DNA of 36,872 nucleotides from Acidimicrobiia bacterium. GTDB lineage: Bacteria; Actinomycetota; Acidimicrobiia; Acidimicrobiales; CATQHL01. Under the pieces are notes generated by a model. It made no database searches. It was given only the letters and a program-made list of their open reading frames with translations, and was not told the origin of the DNA. Shown one piece after another: positions 6,323 through 36,284 of the stretch. The position numbers and the translations under genes were made by a program. Each line of letters begins with the position of its first letter. Within the stretch, counting starts at the first letter, position 1. The DNA lies in the NCBI GenBank assembly GCA_009840735.1, contig VXNF01000099.1:1-36872 (forward strand), read 5' to 3'.

Positions 6323-6900
6323 TCAGCGGGGCGGTCGGGAGACGTTGAGATCGCCGGGCACGTACCAGCGCCAGGGACGTTCGGTGGCCGCCGAGATGCC
6401 GATACGGCCGCTGCTCGCATGGGTGGAGGTGCCCGCGCCGTCCTCGAGTATCGCCACCGGGGAGGCCGGATCAAGCAGATCGGCGCCGTTGTGGTGACCG
6501 TCGATGCCCAAGGCGGCGGTGAGCTTGGCGGGGCCGCTGCACAGGTCTCGGGTGCGGCGCGCCTTCGGGCGGTCGGCCCACATGTCCTCGACGCCCCGCA
6601 GCGGCGCCAGGGCGCGCAACAGCACCGCCCCGCAGCGCCCCTCCGGCTCACAGACCACGTTGGCGCACCAGTGCATCCCGTAGCTGAAGTACACGTACAG
6701 ACGCCCCGGCGGGCCGAACATCACCTCGTTGCGCGGCGTTCGGCCCCGATGGCCGTGGCTGGCCGGATCCTCCGCGCCGCCGTAGGCCTCCACCTCCACG
6801 ATGCGACCGGCTCGGTCACCGCAGGCCAGCACCATGCCCAACAGTTCGGGGGCGACGGCGGCGACCGGGCGCTCGAAGAAGCCTCGGCCTGCTCGCTGGG

Positions 6901-6904: not shown

Positions 6905-9580
<2,676 letters not shown>

Positions 9581-26965: not shown

Positions 26966-27178
26966 GGCTCAGCCATTCAACCCGCGGCCCGCGCCCGTCG
27001 CAACGACCACTGTCCGGACACTCGCCGACCGGAGGGTGGATTAGCAGGGGCTTCTGCCGTCACACAGCAGATCGTCGAGGAGGTCGGGCTGGCGCCGCAA
27101 GAAGGTCAGCCATATCGCCCACGCGGACCCGCGGGCCTGATGACGAGATCGAGCCGATCTCCGCGCCGGGGTGAGCGG

Positions 27179-27667
27179 TCAGTGGGGTGTCGGTTCGTCG
27201 CTCAGGAGACGCAGGGCGTGGGGCAGCACCTCGAGGACGGCTTCGGCGCATTCCACCGCGCCGCGGGGTGATCCCGGTGTGTTGAGGATCAGCGCCCTGC
27301 CGCGGGTGCCGGCGACGGCGCGTGAGAGTCGCCCCAGCGGGTTCACGAAGCGCATCGCCTCGGCCAGCCCGGGGGCAAGGCGCTCAACGACTTGCCGGGT
27401 CCCCTCGGGCGTGAGGTCTCGGGGCCCGAATCCTGTCCCGCCGGTCGTGACGAGGAGCCCGGCGAAGCCGTCGGTCATCTCCGCCAGCGCCTCGGCCACC
27501 GACTCGGCGCCGTCGGCCACGACTCGCCGCTCAACCACCTCGTAGCCGGCGCCGGCCAGCAGCGCCTCTAACGCCTCACCGGAGCGATCCTCCCGCGTGC
27601 CAGCGATGACGCCGTCAGAGACTGTCAGAACCTTGGCAAACAGCCCGGTGGCCCGTAAGTCACTCAC
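27179..27667 (-). CDS. mogA: Molybdopterin adenylyltransferase-type protein MogA/MoaB
   Basis: MPT-binding domain protein, 162 residues, acting late in molybdenum cofactor synthesis by adenylating molybdopterin. Features: VLTVSDGVIAGTREDRSG (about 14-31), TTGGTGFGPRDLTPEGT, and LNTPGSPRGAVEC, the pterin-phosphate and adenylation site. GTG start with a TANNNT box 6 nt before it. MogA and MoaB cannot be told apart by sequence alone. No other cofactor genes are nearby. The frame stays open 45 codons past its TGA, without family likeness. Confidence 0.88.
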   Translation of the reverse strand: MSDLRATGLFAKVLTVSDGVIAGTREDRSGEALEALLAGAGYEVVERRVVADGAESVAEALAEMTDGFAGLLVTTGGTGFGPRDLTPEGTRQVVERLAPGLAEAMRFVNPLGRLSRAVAGTRGRALILNTPGSPRGAVECAEAVLEVLPHALRLLSDEPTPH

Positions 27668-29640: not shown

Positions 29641-30531
29641 TCAGGAGCCGAGTCGGCAGGCGGCTTCGAGGCGGGCGCCGCGGCGCCAGTCCCCCGCGGG
29701 CATGGCCCGACGGCCGGCCGACTGCACCTCGTCGAGGCGGAGCCCGCCGGCCGCGGTGCCCGCCACAAGACCGTCGAGGATGCCGGCCGGGCCGCTGTGC
29801 GACGGCACGACGCTGGCGCGGAGAATCCGCAGCCGCTCGCCCGCCAGCGTTGTCCACGCCCGTCCCAACCGGACGCGCCGGTGCAACTCCACGGCGGGGC
29901 GATCCCAGTCGAGCCCCAGCTCGTCGTCGCCGATCTTGGCAGCCCAGGTGGCCTCCCCCGCCTGCGGCACCGGGTGGCGCGGCCCGGCCCGCAGCCACTC
30001 CACGAGCAGCGGGCAACTCAGAGCGACGAGGCGGTCGCGCAGCTCGGCAAGGGTCTCGTCTGCGCCGATGGGCGTGGCCTGCTGCGCGTAGAGCGGCCCG
30101 GCGTCGAGAGTCTCGGTGAGCGCCATCAGGCTGACGCCGGTGACCTGGTCGCCGGCCAGAATGGCGCGCTCCATGGGTGCGGCCCCCCGCCAGCGCGGCA
30201 GCAGCGAGAAGTGCGCGTTCACCGCAGGCAGCGCAGCCAGGACGTCGGCACCGATGAGTCGCCCGTAAGCCACCACGACGGCGCCGTCGGCGCCTGCGGC
30301 GGCGACCGGCGCATCCTCGGCGAAGTGCGTCACCGGGATGCCCAGGGCGGCGGCGGCCCGGCTCACCGGACTGGGCTCCGCCGCGCCGCGCCGTGAGCGA
30401 CGGCGGTCGGGGCCGGTCACCGCCAGGATGACATCGAAGCCGGCGTCACACAGGGCGCGCAGCGGGGCAACCGCAAGCTCCGGGGTGCCGAAGTACACCA
30501 GCCGGCGGACCGCCGCCGGCCAGGGGGTCAC
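29641..30531 (-). CDS. fmt: Methionyl-tRNA formyltransferase
   Basis: Formylates initiator Met-tRNA. 296 residues from GTG 30531, 4 nt after the def stop; a GTG at 30567 gives 12 more residues but overlaps def. Features: LVYFGTPELAVAPLRAL at the N-terminus, catalytic NAHFSLLPRWRGAAP with Asn and His, and TLDAGPLY with the catalytic Asp. The C-terminal OB-like tRNA-binding domain covers roughly the last 95 residues. Paired with def as usual, linking formylation and deformylation. The methyltransferase of the RM pair follows after 63 bp. Confidence 0.95.
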   Translation of the reverse strand: MTPWPAAVRRLVYFGTPELAVAPLRALCDAGFDVILAVTGPDRRRSRRGAAEPSPVSRAAAALGIPVTHFAEDAPVAAAGADGAVVVAYGRLIGADVLAALPAVNAHFSLLPRWRGAAPMERAILAGDQVTGVSLMALTETLDAGPLYAQQATPIGADETLAELRDRLVALSCPLLVEWLRAGPRHPVPQAGEATWAAKIGDDELGLDWDRPAVELHRRVRLGRAWTTLAGERLRILRASVVPSHSGPAGILDGLVAGTAAGGLRLDEVQSAGRRAMPAGDWRRGARLEAACRLGS

Positions 30532-30535
30532 GGCG

Positions 30536-31060
30536 TCACTCGGCGCCGAGGGACGGGAAGAGTCCACCGCCTTGGGCGCCGACGCCGCGGCGGCGCAATT
30601 CGCTGAGCGCGGCGCGCCGCTGGTCGTCGTCCAGACGCTCGGTCAGCAGGACGCCGTCGAGGTGATCGATCTCGTGCTGGATGAGCCGGGCGAACAGGTC
30701 ATCGGCCTCCACGGTGACCTCGTTGCCGTTGAGGTCGATGCCCGACAGCGCCACCCGGCGAGGCCGCTCGATCTGCCACGAGTAGCCCGGCACCGACAGG
30801 CAGCCCTCCTCAAACATCCAAGTGCCGTCGCTGTCGGCGAGGACCGGGTTGAGGATCACCCCGCGCCCGCACGTCTCGGGCTCGTCGTAGACGAAGAGCC
30901 GCTTGCGCACACCGACCTGAGGGGCGGCCAGCCCGATCCCACGCGCCGCGTACATGGTGGTGAACATGCCGTCGCACAGCCGCGCCACTGAACCGTCGAT
31001 CTGGGTCACCTCAGCGGCCTTGGAGCGCAGCACCGGGTCGCCGAAGAGCCGGATTTCCAC
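30536..31060 (-). CDS. def: Peptide deformylase
   Basis: Removes the N-formyl group from nascent proteins; Fe/Zn metalloenzyme. 174 residues from GTG 31060 (VEIRLFGDPVLR), the normal N-terminus; 48 further upstream codons are open but unlike the family. All three motifs are intact: GIGLAAPQVG, EGCLSVP (metal Cys) and HEIDH (HExxH). A TANNNT box lies 7 nt before the start. Followed by fmt. Confidence 0.96.
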   Translation of the reverse strand: MEIRLFGDPVLRSKAAEVTQIDGSVARLCDGMFTTMYAARGIGLAAPQVGVRKRLFVYDEPETCGRGVILNPVLADSDGTWMFEEGCLSVPGYSWQIERPRRVALSGIDLNGNEVTVEADDLFARLIQHEIDHLDGVLLTERLDDDQRRAALSELRRRGVGAQGGGLFPSLGAE

Positions 31061-31067
31061 GCCGTCG

Positions 31068-31073
31068 AGGCTA
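31068..31073 (-). promoter_or_regulatory. -10 box for a possibly leaderless def-fmt transcript
   Basis: TAGCCT on the minus strand ends 7 nt before GTG 31060 of def. No Shine-Dalgarno and no good -35 are visible. It would be the promoter of the def-fmt unit. Confidence 0.4.
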
Positions 31074-31190
31074 GCGAGCGCTGCGCTGGCCGAGGGTGCC
31101 CGGCGGCGGGCGACCGGCGCAGGCGCCGACCGGCCAGCGAAGCGAGCGGACCGTCGGGCTGGCAGCCACCGAGGGATCTCGTCGGTGGGG

Positions 31191-31196
31191 TATCGT
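31191..31196 (+). promoter_or_regulatory. -10 box for a possibly leaderless RsmC-like gene
   Basis: TATCGT ends 6 nt before ATG 31203. No Shine-Dalgarno lies between. Divergent from the def promoter about 120 bp away. No clear -35. Confidence 0.45.
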
Positions 31197-31202
31197 CCGC
31201 GC

Positions 31203-31943
31203 ATGGTCGGGGTGGATCACTACTTCTCGCCGAGCCCCGTCTCCCAGCGCCGCCCGCGCACTGTCACCCTTCGGTTGGCGGACCTCACCGTGGACCTGCG
31301 CACCGACCGCGGCGTGTATTCCGCAGACCGCATCGACCCCGGCACGCTCCTGCTGCTGAAGCACGCTCCGCTGCCCCCGGCACCTGCGCCGAGGAGCGGC
31401 GGCCCCGGCGCGGCGCCCGTCCGCGTGCTGGCCGATGTGGGCTGCGGATACGGCCCCATCGCCGTGACTCTGGCGCTGCGGGCACCCGATGCCGCCGTCT
31501 GGGCGATCGACGTGAACGAGCGGGCCAGAGAGCTGGCGACAGCCAACCTGGCCGCAGTCGGCGTGCCGAGGGGCGGCGCTGCCGACGGAGGCCAGCACAA
31601 CGGCAGCCACGACCGCGCGGGCCACAACGACCACGACCGCGCAGGGGAGCGAATGCGGGCGCGGGTCTGCTCGCCCGAGGAGGTTCCCGAGGCGCTGCGC
31701 TTCGACGCCGTGTATTGCAACCCGCCGGTGCGCATCGGCAAGGCGGCTCTGGACGATCTGCTCGCAGGGTGGCTGCGACGGCTGCGGCGCGGCGGTTTCG
31801 CCGTGCTGGTGATGCACAAGAACCTGGGCGCCGACTCGTTGGCGCGCCGTCTAGCGGCCGCCGGCACGACGCCTAGGCGACTGGCTGTCGGCGGCGGCTA
31901 CCGGGTGCTGCAGGTGCCCGCGGCCGACAGGGCCGAGCCATGA
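31203..31943 (+). CDS. Class I SAM-dependent methyltransferase, RsmC-like
   Basis: 246 residues. The N-terminus DHYFSPSPVSQRRPRTVTL and GVYSADRIDPGTLLLL are typical of actinobacterial RsmC-like proteins (16S rRNA guanine-N2 methylation by analogy). SAM motif I is VLADVGCGYGPIAV. The catalytic NPP motif is VYCNPPVRIGK. Between them lies an unusual Gly/His/Asp-rich insert (about residues 124-146) with the unit HDRAG twice. The start ATG 31203 is chosen because the protein begins there and a -10 box sits 6 nt upstream; the frame runs further upstream through the def promoter. The stop overlaps a 35-codon ORF as ATGA. Confidence 0.85.
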   Translation: MVGVDHYFSPSPVSQRRPRTVTLRLADLTVDLRTDRGVYSADRIDPGTLLLLKHAPLPPAPAPRSGGPGAAPVRVLADVGCGYGPIAVTLALRAPDAAVWAIDVNERARELATANLAAVGVPRGGAADGGQHNGSHDRAGHNDHDRAGERMRARVCSPEEVPEALRFDAVYCNPPVRIGKAALDDLLAGWLRRLRRGGFAVLVMHKNLGADSLARRLAAAGTTPRRLAVGGGYRVLQVPAADRAEP

Positions 31944-33371: not shown

Positions 33372-33827
33372 ATGCAGACCCAATCAAGGGAAGAACTGAC
33401 CCAACGACTCGTCGAGTCCGCGGAGCGCCTGAACAGGGAGCTGCGACTCGATCACCTCAGCGAGTGGCAGGAGTTGGCCCTGACCATCCCGCAGGCCAAG
33501 ACCCTGCTGCTCCTCGAGCGGGAAGGGCCGCAGCGGATGGGTGCCATCGCGGGTGCCCTGGGGATCGCCGTGTCGGCCACAACGACCGTCGTGGACCGAC
33601 TCGTCGAGCGCGGTCTGGCCGAGCGTCTGTCCGATCCGAAGGACCGTCGGGTGGTGATCTGCGGGCTCACCGATCAGGGCCGCCAAGCGGCCGACAGGTT
33701 CTGGGCGATCGGACACGAACGGATCCGCGCCTTGGCCGGTCAGCTGCGGGCCGAGCAGCTGACCGGTCTCGTGCAGGCGATCGAACGGCTGTGTGACGAC
33801 AAGGCTGAAGCACCGGCCGACTCCTGA
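33372..33827 (+). CDS. MarR-family transcriptional regulator
   Basis: 151-residue dimeric winged helix-turn-helix regulator. Helix 1 carries NRELRLDHLSEWQELAL. The DNA-binding part is TIPQAKTLLLLEREGPQRMGAIAGALGIAVSATTTVVDRLVERGLAERLSDPKDRR, within about 38-93, with recognition helix around SATTTVVDRL and the wing at SDPKDRRVV. C-terminal helices (about 105-145) form the dimer interface. Ligand unknown. It may regulate itself through the upstream repeats and perhaps the sigma factor gene that follows 112 bp downstream on the same strand. Confidence 0.92.
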   Translation: MQTQSREELTQRLVESAERLNRELRLDHLSEWQELALTIPQAKTLLLLEREGPQRMGAIAGALGIAVSATTTVVDRLVERGLAERLSDPKDRRVVICGLTDQGRQAADRFWAIGHERIRALAGQLRAEQLTGLVQAIERLCDDKAEAPADS

Positions 33828-33892
33828 GGATCCCCCCCTAGGAGAATCTCTTCGCCAACGCTGTCAACGCGCGCCGGACTTCGAGCGTCTGT

Positions 33893-33939: not shown

Positions 33940-34485
33940 ATGAGCGCCCCAAAGCGGCGAGGCAGCCCACGAGGAAGCGATACCCAAGATGACCTGCTGG
34001 TCCGGCTGTTCGCCGACCATTACAAGGATCTCGTGCGTCTCGCCTCCTTGCTGCTCGACGACGTGGGGAGCTGCGAGGAAGTCGTGCAGGACGCCTTCGT
34101 GAAGCTACACACGCTCAGCGCTCGCCCCGAGGCGGGCAAAGAGGCCGCCTACCTGCGCAGCATGGTCCTCAACGGGGCGCGCTCGCGCATGCGCAAGCGC
34201 ATGGTGCGCCAGCGCGTGGCGCTTGCGCCGGTGCCGCCCGCGAGCAGCGCCGAGGAAGGCGCCCTCGAGCGGCTGGGCGGCGAAGCCCTGCTCGACGCCG
34301 TGCGCAGCCTGCCGCGGCGCCAGTCCGAGGTGCTCACCCTGCGCTACTACCTGGACCTCAGCGAAGCCGAGATCGCTGGGACGCTCGGAATATCCCCGGG
34401 TTCGGTCAAGACCCACGCCAGCCGCGGCCTCGCGGCTCTCGAGCGCAAGCTGACCGCCTCCGGAGCGAATGAGGCGACGTCGTGA
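33940..34485 (+). CDS. ECF-type RNA polymerase sigma factor (SigE family)
   Basis: 181 residues. Region 2 (about 18-90: LLVRLFADHYKDLVRLASLLLDD, then SCEEVVQDAFVKLH) binds core polymerase and the -10. Region 4 (about 115-172) has the helix-turn-helix LSEAEIAGTLGISPGSVKTHASRGLAALE. There are no region 1.1 or 3 domains, typical of ECF factors for envelope signals. Start ATG 33940 is chosen; the frame is open back to 33793 inside the MarR gene, but that part is not sigma-like. The stop overlaps the next gene as GTGA, the usual sigma/anti-sigma arrangement. Confidence 0.93.
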   Translation: MSAPKRRGSPRGSDTQDDLLVRLFADHYKDLVRLASLLLDDVGSCEEVVQDAFVKLHTLSARPEAGKEAAYLRSMVLNGARSRMRKRMVRQRVALAPVPPASSAEEGALERLGGEALLDAVRSLPRRQSEVLTLRYYLDLSEAEIAGTLGISPGSVKTHASRGLAALERKLTASGANEATS

Positions 34486-36284
34486 GCATCGAAGAACGCC
34501 TGCGGAGCGCCCTCGCACAGCGGGCCGAGAGCGTTGAGACGTCGCCGGGCGCCCTGTTCGAGATCCAGCGTCGCATCGCCCAGCGGCGCCGAGTGCTGCG
34601 GGTGGCGCGTCTGCCCGAGTTGCGCCTGCGGCCGGCGCTTGTCCTAGCGGCAGCAGCCTGCGCGACGATCGCCGTCGTCGTCTCCGTCTCGGTGAGAGGA
34701 CCCGCGCCGCCGCCGATTCAGACCGACACCCAGCCGGTCGCCGGCACCGCCGAGCCAGCCGTGGTAGCACCGACCACCGTCGAGCCGCCGCCGCAGGGGC
34801 CCGCACCTACGCCCCCGCTCGCTCAGACGGCGCCGCAACCGAACGAATCCGGCCAGCTCACCACCGCTGCTGAGCCGCCGAGCGAGGTCGCAGCGACACC
34901 TCCGTCCGATCCCCCGCCAGCGACCGACGCCGCCGCCAGCGAGGCTGCCGACGACGAGGCCACCAACGGCGAAGACTCCGGCGAGGCTGCCGGCGACGAC
35001 GAGGCCGTCGCCACCGAGACGCAGGGGTGCCCCGCCGCGCCGGCGGACGCCGCTGAGCCGTCCGCGGGGTGGGTCACCGTGTACTTCGCCTGCGAGGGCA
35101 ACGACGCCGCGCCTCGGCTGCGGGCCGCCGACGACGACAACCTCCTGACCGCGCTGAAGATCCTTCTCGGAGGACCCGACGAGGCCGACCGCGCCGACGG
35201 GTTCCGGGGCCTCAGCGCCGCCTCGCCCACGACGGTCACCACCGCCACGACCGACCGTTGGGTCACGATCGATCTGCCCGCCGGCCTCGCCAACTCCTTC
35301 GGCGCCGGCGACGGCGGCATCACGGCCCGACAATTCCTAAGCCAGCTCAACGCCACCGTGTTCCACTCCGGCGACTTCGAAGTTGCCGAATACCGCCTCG
35401 GCGGCGACTGCGCGGCCTTCGGGTCGCTCCTCGGTGCTTCCTGCCAGATCCACCTTCGCGACGGCGACGGCTACGCCAGCCGCACCAGCGATCTGACGGC
35501 CCACACCATCGGCCGTGCCGCTTCGGTGGTCCGCGCCGAGCCCGACGACAGCGCCGCCGAGTTCGGCGTCCTGCGCGACGGCACCCGCCTCACCGACGGC
35601 CGCGCCGGCAACGGCCGCGCCGCCTGGGCCGAGGTCGTGACCGCGTCCGGCGACCGGGGCTGGGTGTCGACCCAGACCATCGTGGCGCAGCCGCTGGCGC
35701 TCGATGCCGCCACCGCCGCGCGTATGGCCGACCTGGCGCGTCGCCTCACGACCGGCCCTGGGCTCGAATCCTCCGCCCTGGTGCCGGCGGGGCTCGTGCT
35801 GCGATGGGGCGCCGGCGGCGGCGACCTCGCCGTCGTGTCGACCGCCGACGCGGCGCTTCGAAGCGACTGGTGGCACACGGCGGTGGACACACCCTCGCCG
35901 CGGGACGGGTCTGCGCAGTCGTCGCTGGCTGACCTGCTGTGGATCGACGGCCAAGGGGACGGCGCCACCGTCACGGTCAACGCGCCCGGGCCGCTCGGCG
36001 AGCCGCACGGCGACTTCACGGCGCTGGCCTACGTGTCGATCTACCGGCCGGCGATCGAGGGCTCGACCCTGCCGCCCCCGCTGGCGACCAGCGCCCCGGA
36101 GCAGACGACGCCGACCTCTGAAGGCCCCGACCTGCCTCCGGTGCTTCCGAGCCTGAGTGAAGGGAACAGCGACGCCGGCGAGCAGCCGCCTCCGCCGCGG
36201 GCGCAGATCAGCGTCATCTTCGACTTCCTGTCACCCGACGGGCCTCGCGTCGCTGCGGCTGAGGCCATCTGGATCCAGCCGTAG
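34482..36284 (+). CDS. Single-pass membrane protein with GerMN and SH3b domains; likely anti-sigma/sensor partner
   Basis: 600 residues, GTG start inside the sigma stop codon (GTGA). A cytoplasmic N-terminus of about 50 residues (LRSALAQRAESVETSPGALFEIQRRI) has the form common in proteins encoded after actinobacterial SigE-family factors, but no zinc H-x3-C-x2-C motif. Transmembrane helix about 51-72. A long Pro/Ala/Glu-rich stalk (73-190) follows. A GerMN-like domain (about 196-325, VTVYFACEG to LGASCQIHL) contains Cys204, 310 and 321. An SH3b-like domain (about 342-402, ending DRGWVSTQTIV) comes next. The C-terminal about 200 residues are unassigned. Extracytoplasmic GerMN and SH3b suggest binding cell-wall material. 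Anti-sigma function is inference. Confidence 0.8.
   Translation: MSIEERLRSALAQRAESVETSPGALFEIQRRIAQRRRVLRVARLPELRLRPALVLAAAACATIAVVVSVSVRGPAPPPIQTDTQPVAGTAEPAVVAPTTVEPPPQGPAPTPPLAQTAPQPNESGQLTTAAEPPSEVAATPPSDPPPATDAAASEAADDEATNGEDSGEAAGDDEAVATETQGCPAAPADAAEPSAGWVTVYFACEGNDAAPRLRAADDDNLLTALKILLGGPDEADRADGFRGLSAASPTTVTTATTDRWVTIDLPAGLANSFGAGDGGITARQFLSQLNATVFHSGDFEVAEYRLGGDCAAFGSLLGASCQIHLRDGDGYASRTSDLTAHTIGRAASVVRAEPDDSAAEFGVLRDGTRLTDGRAGNGRAAWAEVVTASGDRGWVSTQTIVAQPLALDAATAARMADLARRLTTGPGLESSALVPAGLVLRWGAGGGDLAVVSTADAALRSDWWHTAVDTPSPRDGSAQSSLADLLWIDGQGDGATVTVNAPGPLGEPHGDFTALAYVSIYRPAIEGSTLPPPLATSAPEQTTPTSEGPDLPPVLPSLSEGNSDAGEQPPPPRAQISVIFDFLSPDGPRVAAAEAIWIQP

Follow-up and report, generated by a model that had tools for sequence, protein, structure and literature searches.

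Genes at the locus

The window analysed here is the whole stretch of 36,872 nucleotides of contig VXNF01000099.1, from an Acidimicrobiia bacterium (assembly GCA_009840735.1, genome G000 below). Towards its 3' end the gene of an ECF sigma factor is followed on the same strand by the gene of a membrane sensor, a putative anti-sigma factor, and by the start of a lipoprotein gene (Table 1). The sigma gene was set to begin at ATG 33940, the first ATG that fits the homologues and most likely the true translation start. Its product has sigma regions 2 and 4 and lacks region 3, as in ECF sigma factors, with both Pfam matches above cut-off (Sigma70_r2, 1.2e-7; Sigma70_r4_2, 9.6e-18). The SigE family model TIGR02983 was the top-scoring of all models (E 3.4e-40); its 137.6 bits fall just short of the cut-off, 141.55.

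The sensor gene starts with GTG at 34482 and ends with TAG, and its start overlaps the sigma stop TGA (34483-34485) as GTGA. The first-pass annotation had described this gene with the right coordinates, strand, reading frame and overlap. Seven further genomes of the family, six from the genus plus G008, whose sensor is 34-39% identical, preserve the pair and its 4-bp overlap; this conservation puts the pairing beyond chance. A MarR-type gene (33372-33827) lies just upstream of the sigma gene, at the locus common to the genus only. Elsewhere in the window, a partial 16S rRNA gene was found at the contig end (1-768, minus strand; Rfam RF00177, 757.8 bits), and overlapping frames at 29641-31204 (minus strand), judged only by eye, resemble methionyl-tRNA formyltransferase and peptide deformylase.

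Table 1. Features of the sigma-sensor locus, and two predicted target loci elsewhere in the genome
Feature	Position	Strand	Evidence
Predicted sigma-dependent promoter TGTCAAC-N17-CGTCTG (-35, -10), 48 nt 5' of sigma ATG	33862..33891	+	conservation
ECF sigma factor, SigE-family-like, 181 aa	33940..34485	+	Sigma70_r2 and Sigma70_r4_2, TIGR02983
Membrane sensor, putative anti-sigma factor, 600 aa	34482..36284	+	ORF, GTGA overlap, conserved pair
Cytoplasmic tail, residues 1-48, putative non-zinc anti-sigma domain	34482..34625	+	conservation, tail-only profile
Single transmembrane helix, about residues 50-71, Arg-rich inner side	34629..34694	+	sequence; homologue hydropathy
Pro/Ala-rich stalk, about residues 73-190	34698..35051	+	sequence
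GerMN domain, about residues 197-329	35070..35468	+	PF10646 match of a relative, profile, fold
SH3b domain, about residues 340-404	35499..35693	+	SH3_3, relatives, fold
Conserved C-terminal domain, about residues 409-600, no family	35706..36281	+	common to SH3b-containing relatives
Pro/Ala-rich lipoprotein start, cut by contig end	36335..36872	+	ORF open at 3' end
Leaderless-looking gene of ~80-aa CxCxPIRWA protein	locus L228 1144-1386	-	behind predicted sigma promoter
Structured ~120-nt RNA (G000:C75:2635)	locus L227 236-401	+ (on C75)	behind predicted sigma promoter

Cytoplasmic tail and stalk

The tail is Arg-rich, with two putative helices around a VxxSPxAL turn; a homologous tail was modelled as two helices in a predicted structure. 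Within the genus it is the best-conserved part of the sensor, with the consensus MSIEERLRxAfxQRAexVevSPGALFeIqRR. The HxxxCxxC motif that defines zinc-binding anti-sigma factors (class I, ZAS) is absent from the window tail and from the first 110 aa of all 79 homologous downstream proteins. The first-pass annotation had pointed out the short N-terminus without a zinc motif. Such an absence is normal for anti-sigma factors, since about 44% of class I lack the motif (PMC7406223). The long Pro-rich stalk reported earlier is also present; both its length and its sequence differ among relatives.

Extracellular domains

About 400 aa of the sensor lie outside the membrane. Residues 180-600 were modelled with AlphaFold2 from an alignment of 16 sequences (pLDDT 83, pTM 0.80). 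The GerMN domains of Bacillus subtilis GerM were the top PDB fold matches of this model, followed by wall-binding SH3b domains. In a Foldseek comparison of the predicted GerMN domain with GerM, 6gzb was matched with E 3e-4 and probability 1.00, and the single domain 6gz8 with a TM score of 0.64. The best relative of the GerMN and SH3b type, from another family (L024), matches PF10646 at 1.9e-4, with 22.5 bits against a gathering score of 23, and the family profile matches the separate GerMN protein of the same genome on contig C69 at 3.8e-5. For the window protein itself, PF10646 gave no match in a single-sequence Pfam scan or in a search of its own genome, and GerMN was likewise not recovered by single-sequence NCBIfam and PDB searches. 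The earlier GerMN assignment is thus upheld by relatives, family profile and predicted fold, but not by the single-sequence Pfam scan. The C69 protein (26968-27294, locus L001) lies directly behind what appears by eye to be the end of a histidine kinase gene, a gene order that presumably recalls MtrB-LpqB.

SH3_3 is matched weakly in the window protein (E 5.6e-5, 23.7 bits against a gathering score of 27 bits), yet all 10 aligned relatives match it, the relatives L028 and L133 score above the cut-off, and Foldseek places the domain close to the wall-binding SH3b domains of ALE-1, lysostaphin and endolysins; the SH3b assignment holds. The roughly 200 C-terminal residues that had been left unassigned form a conserved domain of ~190 residues without a family, for which neither a profile match nor a significant PDB sequence match was obtained. 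Its best Foldseek match was 3d9r (probability 0.77, TM 0.50), and the NTF2-like matches overall had probabilities of 0.4-0.8 and TM ~0.5, so that an NTF2-like fold is a possible but weak prediction. RskA_C (PF10099) was not matched in the window protein by Pfam.

A modular family in Actinomycetota

A profile of tail and transmembrane helix was matched in 20 of 198 genomes of the order and in 80 of 395 genomes of the class, some of the class matches being weak. Among the best 29 class loci (L040-L068), a sigma gene adjoins the match in 28, and L052 is cut by the contig end. The same profile also picks up a genuine anti-sigma factor with RskA_C, encoded behind a different ECF sigma gene of the source genome; this second sigma/anti-sigma pair is located on C109 (locus L229 1409-2645, minus strand).

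A sigma-based scan of named actinobacterial genomes gave 80 loci with relatives of the window sigma. A protein starts behind the sigma gene in every one of them, at most 129 nt away, with a 4-bp overlap in 73; L164 has TAATG and lies outside the 79 measured. A membrane helix was detected in 76 of these 79 downstream proteins, and contig ends truncate the remaining three. When a profile of the tail without the transmembrane helix was run against the 5,560 stop-to-stop ORFs of those loci, 64 matches were obtained, all directly behind an ECF sigma gene and none away from one, a count that is slightly favourable because a few of the searched loci (L097-L103, L105) also supplied training rows. Linkage to the sigma gene and conservation of the tail together with the sigma factor, which generally mark a membrane anti-sigma factor, are thus established. 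The proposal of the first-pass annotation that the sensor controls the sigma factor is well supported by these two features of the sequences.

The outer parts are diverse. GerMN with SH3b is found in the genus of the window, in G008, in L024/L103 and in L028/L105, that is, in three families of one order. SH3b alone is found in L022 and L023, Gmad2 with SH3b in L109, L119, L133 and L151, Gmad2 with propeller repeats in L106 (Pfam PD40), and propeller-type ectodomains, by eye, in L047 and L054. GerMN with Gmad2 is present in Nocardioides and relatives (L108, L113, L115, L116, L120, L137, L140, L162). L026 carries a SecDF P1-like head, L030 and L042 are multi-TM proteins, and in Streptosporangiales and Nocardiopsis the outer part is merely a short low-complexity tail. 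Judged by sequence comparison, the inner tail is constant in this family and the outer sensor is exchanged; the tail carries several domain combinations, of which GerMN with SH3b is one. The architecture had been called unusual, which is borne out for the pairing, seen in one order; it is less singular as a coupling, because SigE-type sigma factors are widely coupled to GerMN, Gmad2 and SH3b sensors, including those of cultured Nocardioides. A search of the open literature returned nothing relevant on GerMN with ECF anti-sigma factors or on GerMN/Gmad2/LpqB.

Predicted promoter and regulon

The promoter motif was derived by aligning the regions upstream of the sigma genes. The genus and G008 (two genera) keep it with a spacing of exactly 17 nt, and it also occurs in further families, which establishes its conservation. 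The exact pattern has 2-4 sites per genome in eight genomes, against 0 for the reversed-pattern control in the same 8. Only 11 of the 80 loci of the sigma-based scan match it, and it is absent upstream of most distant sigma genes, so the motif is specific to near relatives. When the pattern was relaxed to end in CGTC, the extra sites were near the control level (controls 0-8 per genome), and this form was rejected.

Three exact sites were found in the source genome. The one in front of the sigma gene is predicted to make the operon autoregulatory. The second (C18:9393, minus strand) stands seven nt before the ATG of the small CxCxPIRWA protein, also present in G008; the small-protein gene lies behind the promoter in L181, L186, L187, L192, L193 and L196 as well, and its product has no match to a Pfam family. 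The third (C75:2635, plus strand) precedes the structured RNA, which ends in a terminator-like hairpin and T run, with an acyl-CoA synthetase gene downstream. This RNA is conserved in L177, L180, L183, L189, L190 and L197, with GGAG in two hairpin loops, and folds better than shuffled sequences (z -3.4 to -6.6). Across seven sequences the terminal helix shows 98% pairing, and four of its base pairs have both partners replaced; covariation over the whole structure is only modestly above that of shuffles. No Rfam match was found in L227 or L177; the transcript may act as a small RNA or as a leader. The same promoter pattern was seen in G008 (C2:1002690, locus L185) 5' of a Pro-rich lipoprotein that looks von Willebrand A-type-like by eye.

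The lipoprotein behind the sensor

The window copy of the lipoprotein shows no redoxin half, because the contig ends at 36872. Complete copies (L011-L015) contain a thioredoxin-like domain, matched by Pfam as Thioredoxin/AhpC-TSA, with UGA at the place of the expected first active-site Cys (WAPH-UGA-P-x-C), and the frame stays open beyond the UGA; the positions given for this lipoprotein in L011 are 6515-6535 and 7278-7298. In the order, homologues that contain one inner TGA are common, and a tRNA-Sec is encoded in the source genome (64 bits). The in-frame UGA probably encodes selenocysteine, as far as can be read from these sequences.

Proposed mechanism and its alternatives

We consider it probable, for the whole scheme including release and regulon, that the sensor is a membrane anti-sigma factor, which inhibits through a short tail without zinc and probes the wall with its outer part. 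The 48-residue tail, folded as two short helices without zinc, would bind and silence the SigE-type sigma factor encoded upstream, while one transmembrane helix and the Pro-rich stalk would hold GerMN, SH3b and the third domain out towards the cell wall. The sigma factor would be released when the wall is altered or a wall ligand binds, probably through stepwise proteolysis with the last cut made by the M50 site-2 protease of the genome. The free sigma factor would then transcribe its own operon, the gene of the ~80-aa protein and the structured RNA from the predicted promoters. The steps of signal and release are drawn from the domain types and from what is generally known about regulated proteolysis. 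An M50 protease is encoded in the source genome, which is weak support since all control genomes have one too.

Sigma factor and tail were modelled together on L102, a natural in-frame read-through of the two; unpaired tail rows, which misaligned onto sigma region 2, were left out of the alignment. In the AlphaFold model (pTM 0.58, tail-helix pLDDT about 81 and 57), which carries no inter-domain error, the sigma factor takes a compact form as with the wrapping anti-sigma factors of SigW-RsiW and CnrH-CnrY (TM ~0.7), a compactness that may also arise partner-free.

The tail might instead bind the sigma factor as a required activator or pro-sigma partner in the style of FecR, and linkage and tail conservation cannot separate inhibition from activation. 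This is nevertheless unlikely, as Tt-TolB and CnrY, the known short-tail single-pass partners of ECF sigma factors, inhibit (PMC3397946, PMC7406223), and a FecA-type outer-membrane receptor gene was not seen adjoining the pair in the window. We give equally little credence to a structural or remodelling protein of the wall that is a co-transcribed sigma target and uses its tail for membrane insertion only: the ectodomain parts are of wall-associated types and the operon has the predicted promoter of the sigma factor itself, but the tail motif persists where ectodomains are wholly different or missing, and in the examined loci it does not occur away from sigma genes. Control by another factor, such as the MarR-type protein encoded just upstream within the genus, is very improbable, as its gene was not found at the sigma locus of G008, where sigma, sensor and promoter remain, and the promoter sits between the MarR and sigma genes.

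Significance and comparison with known systems

Class I makes up about 36% of 21,047 putative anti-sigma factors (PMC7406223); most thus fall outside it, and their inhibitory parts are poorly defined. Beside the anti-sigma reading of the window sensor, a wider one is tentatively put forward, to which we give slightly less than even weight: the tail may be an anti-sigma class of its own across Actinomycetota, with swapped sensor cassettes. In the lineage of the window its regulon would be very small, with a structured RNA and a selenocysteine redoxin among the members. If so, one fixed sigma-binding module of ~40 residues would carry GerMN, Gmad2, SH3b and propellers interchangeably, and the redoxin would join the regulon via the sigma operon. 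A tail that stays short and conserved while the wall sensors are exchanged would offer a testable rule for naming such anti-sigma factors from sequence; it would connect transcription control with GerMN, Gmad2 and SH3b domains, and at this locus a promoter and targets are already predicted.

Tt-TolB of Thermoanaerobacter tengcongensis is the nearest tested precedent: it has a 39-aa tail, a transmembrane helix and a large ectodomain, the tail binds the sigma factor and the full protein inhibits it (PMC3397946). As in the window, Tt-TolB is encoded directly behind the ECF sigma factor Tt-RpoE1, with a tail of ~40 aa, one transmembrane helix and a large ectodomain, and the sigma factor is autoregulated, as the predicted promoter suggests for the window. 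The ectodomain differs in being TolB-like, and binding and inhibition are experimental there, whereas the window sensor is likened to it by layout. Its propeller-type ectodomain parallels those of L106, L047 and L054 in the window family, a likeness of ectodomain type.

Class II anti-sigma factors (CnrY, NepR), whose short two-helix domain wraps sigma2 and sigma4, resemble the predicted window tail in a very short cytoplasmic part with two helices and no zinc, and CnrY has a single transmembrane helix; they differ in sequence, no known anti-sigma structure being matched significantly by the tail profile (E 0.48 for CnrY). RskA-type anti-sigma-K factors share the order of N-terminal tail, transmembrane helix and ectodomain behind an ECF sigma factor, but possess the RskA_C domain that is missing from the window protein. 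GerM, which shares the GerMN fold with the window sensor, is a sporulation protein with tandem GerMN domains, and we know of no link between it and a sigma factor. The sensors of Nocardioides and relatives (L108, L116, L120, L162) have the same sigma family, the same tail pattern, GerMN outside and mostly the 4-bp overlap, and differ in that Gmad2 replaces SH3b and the C-terminal domain.
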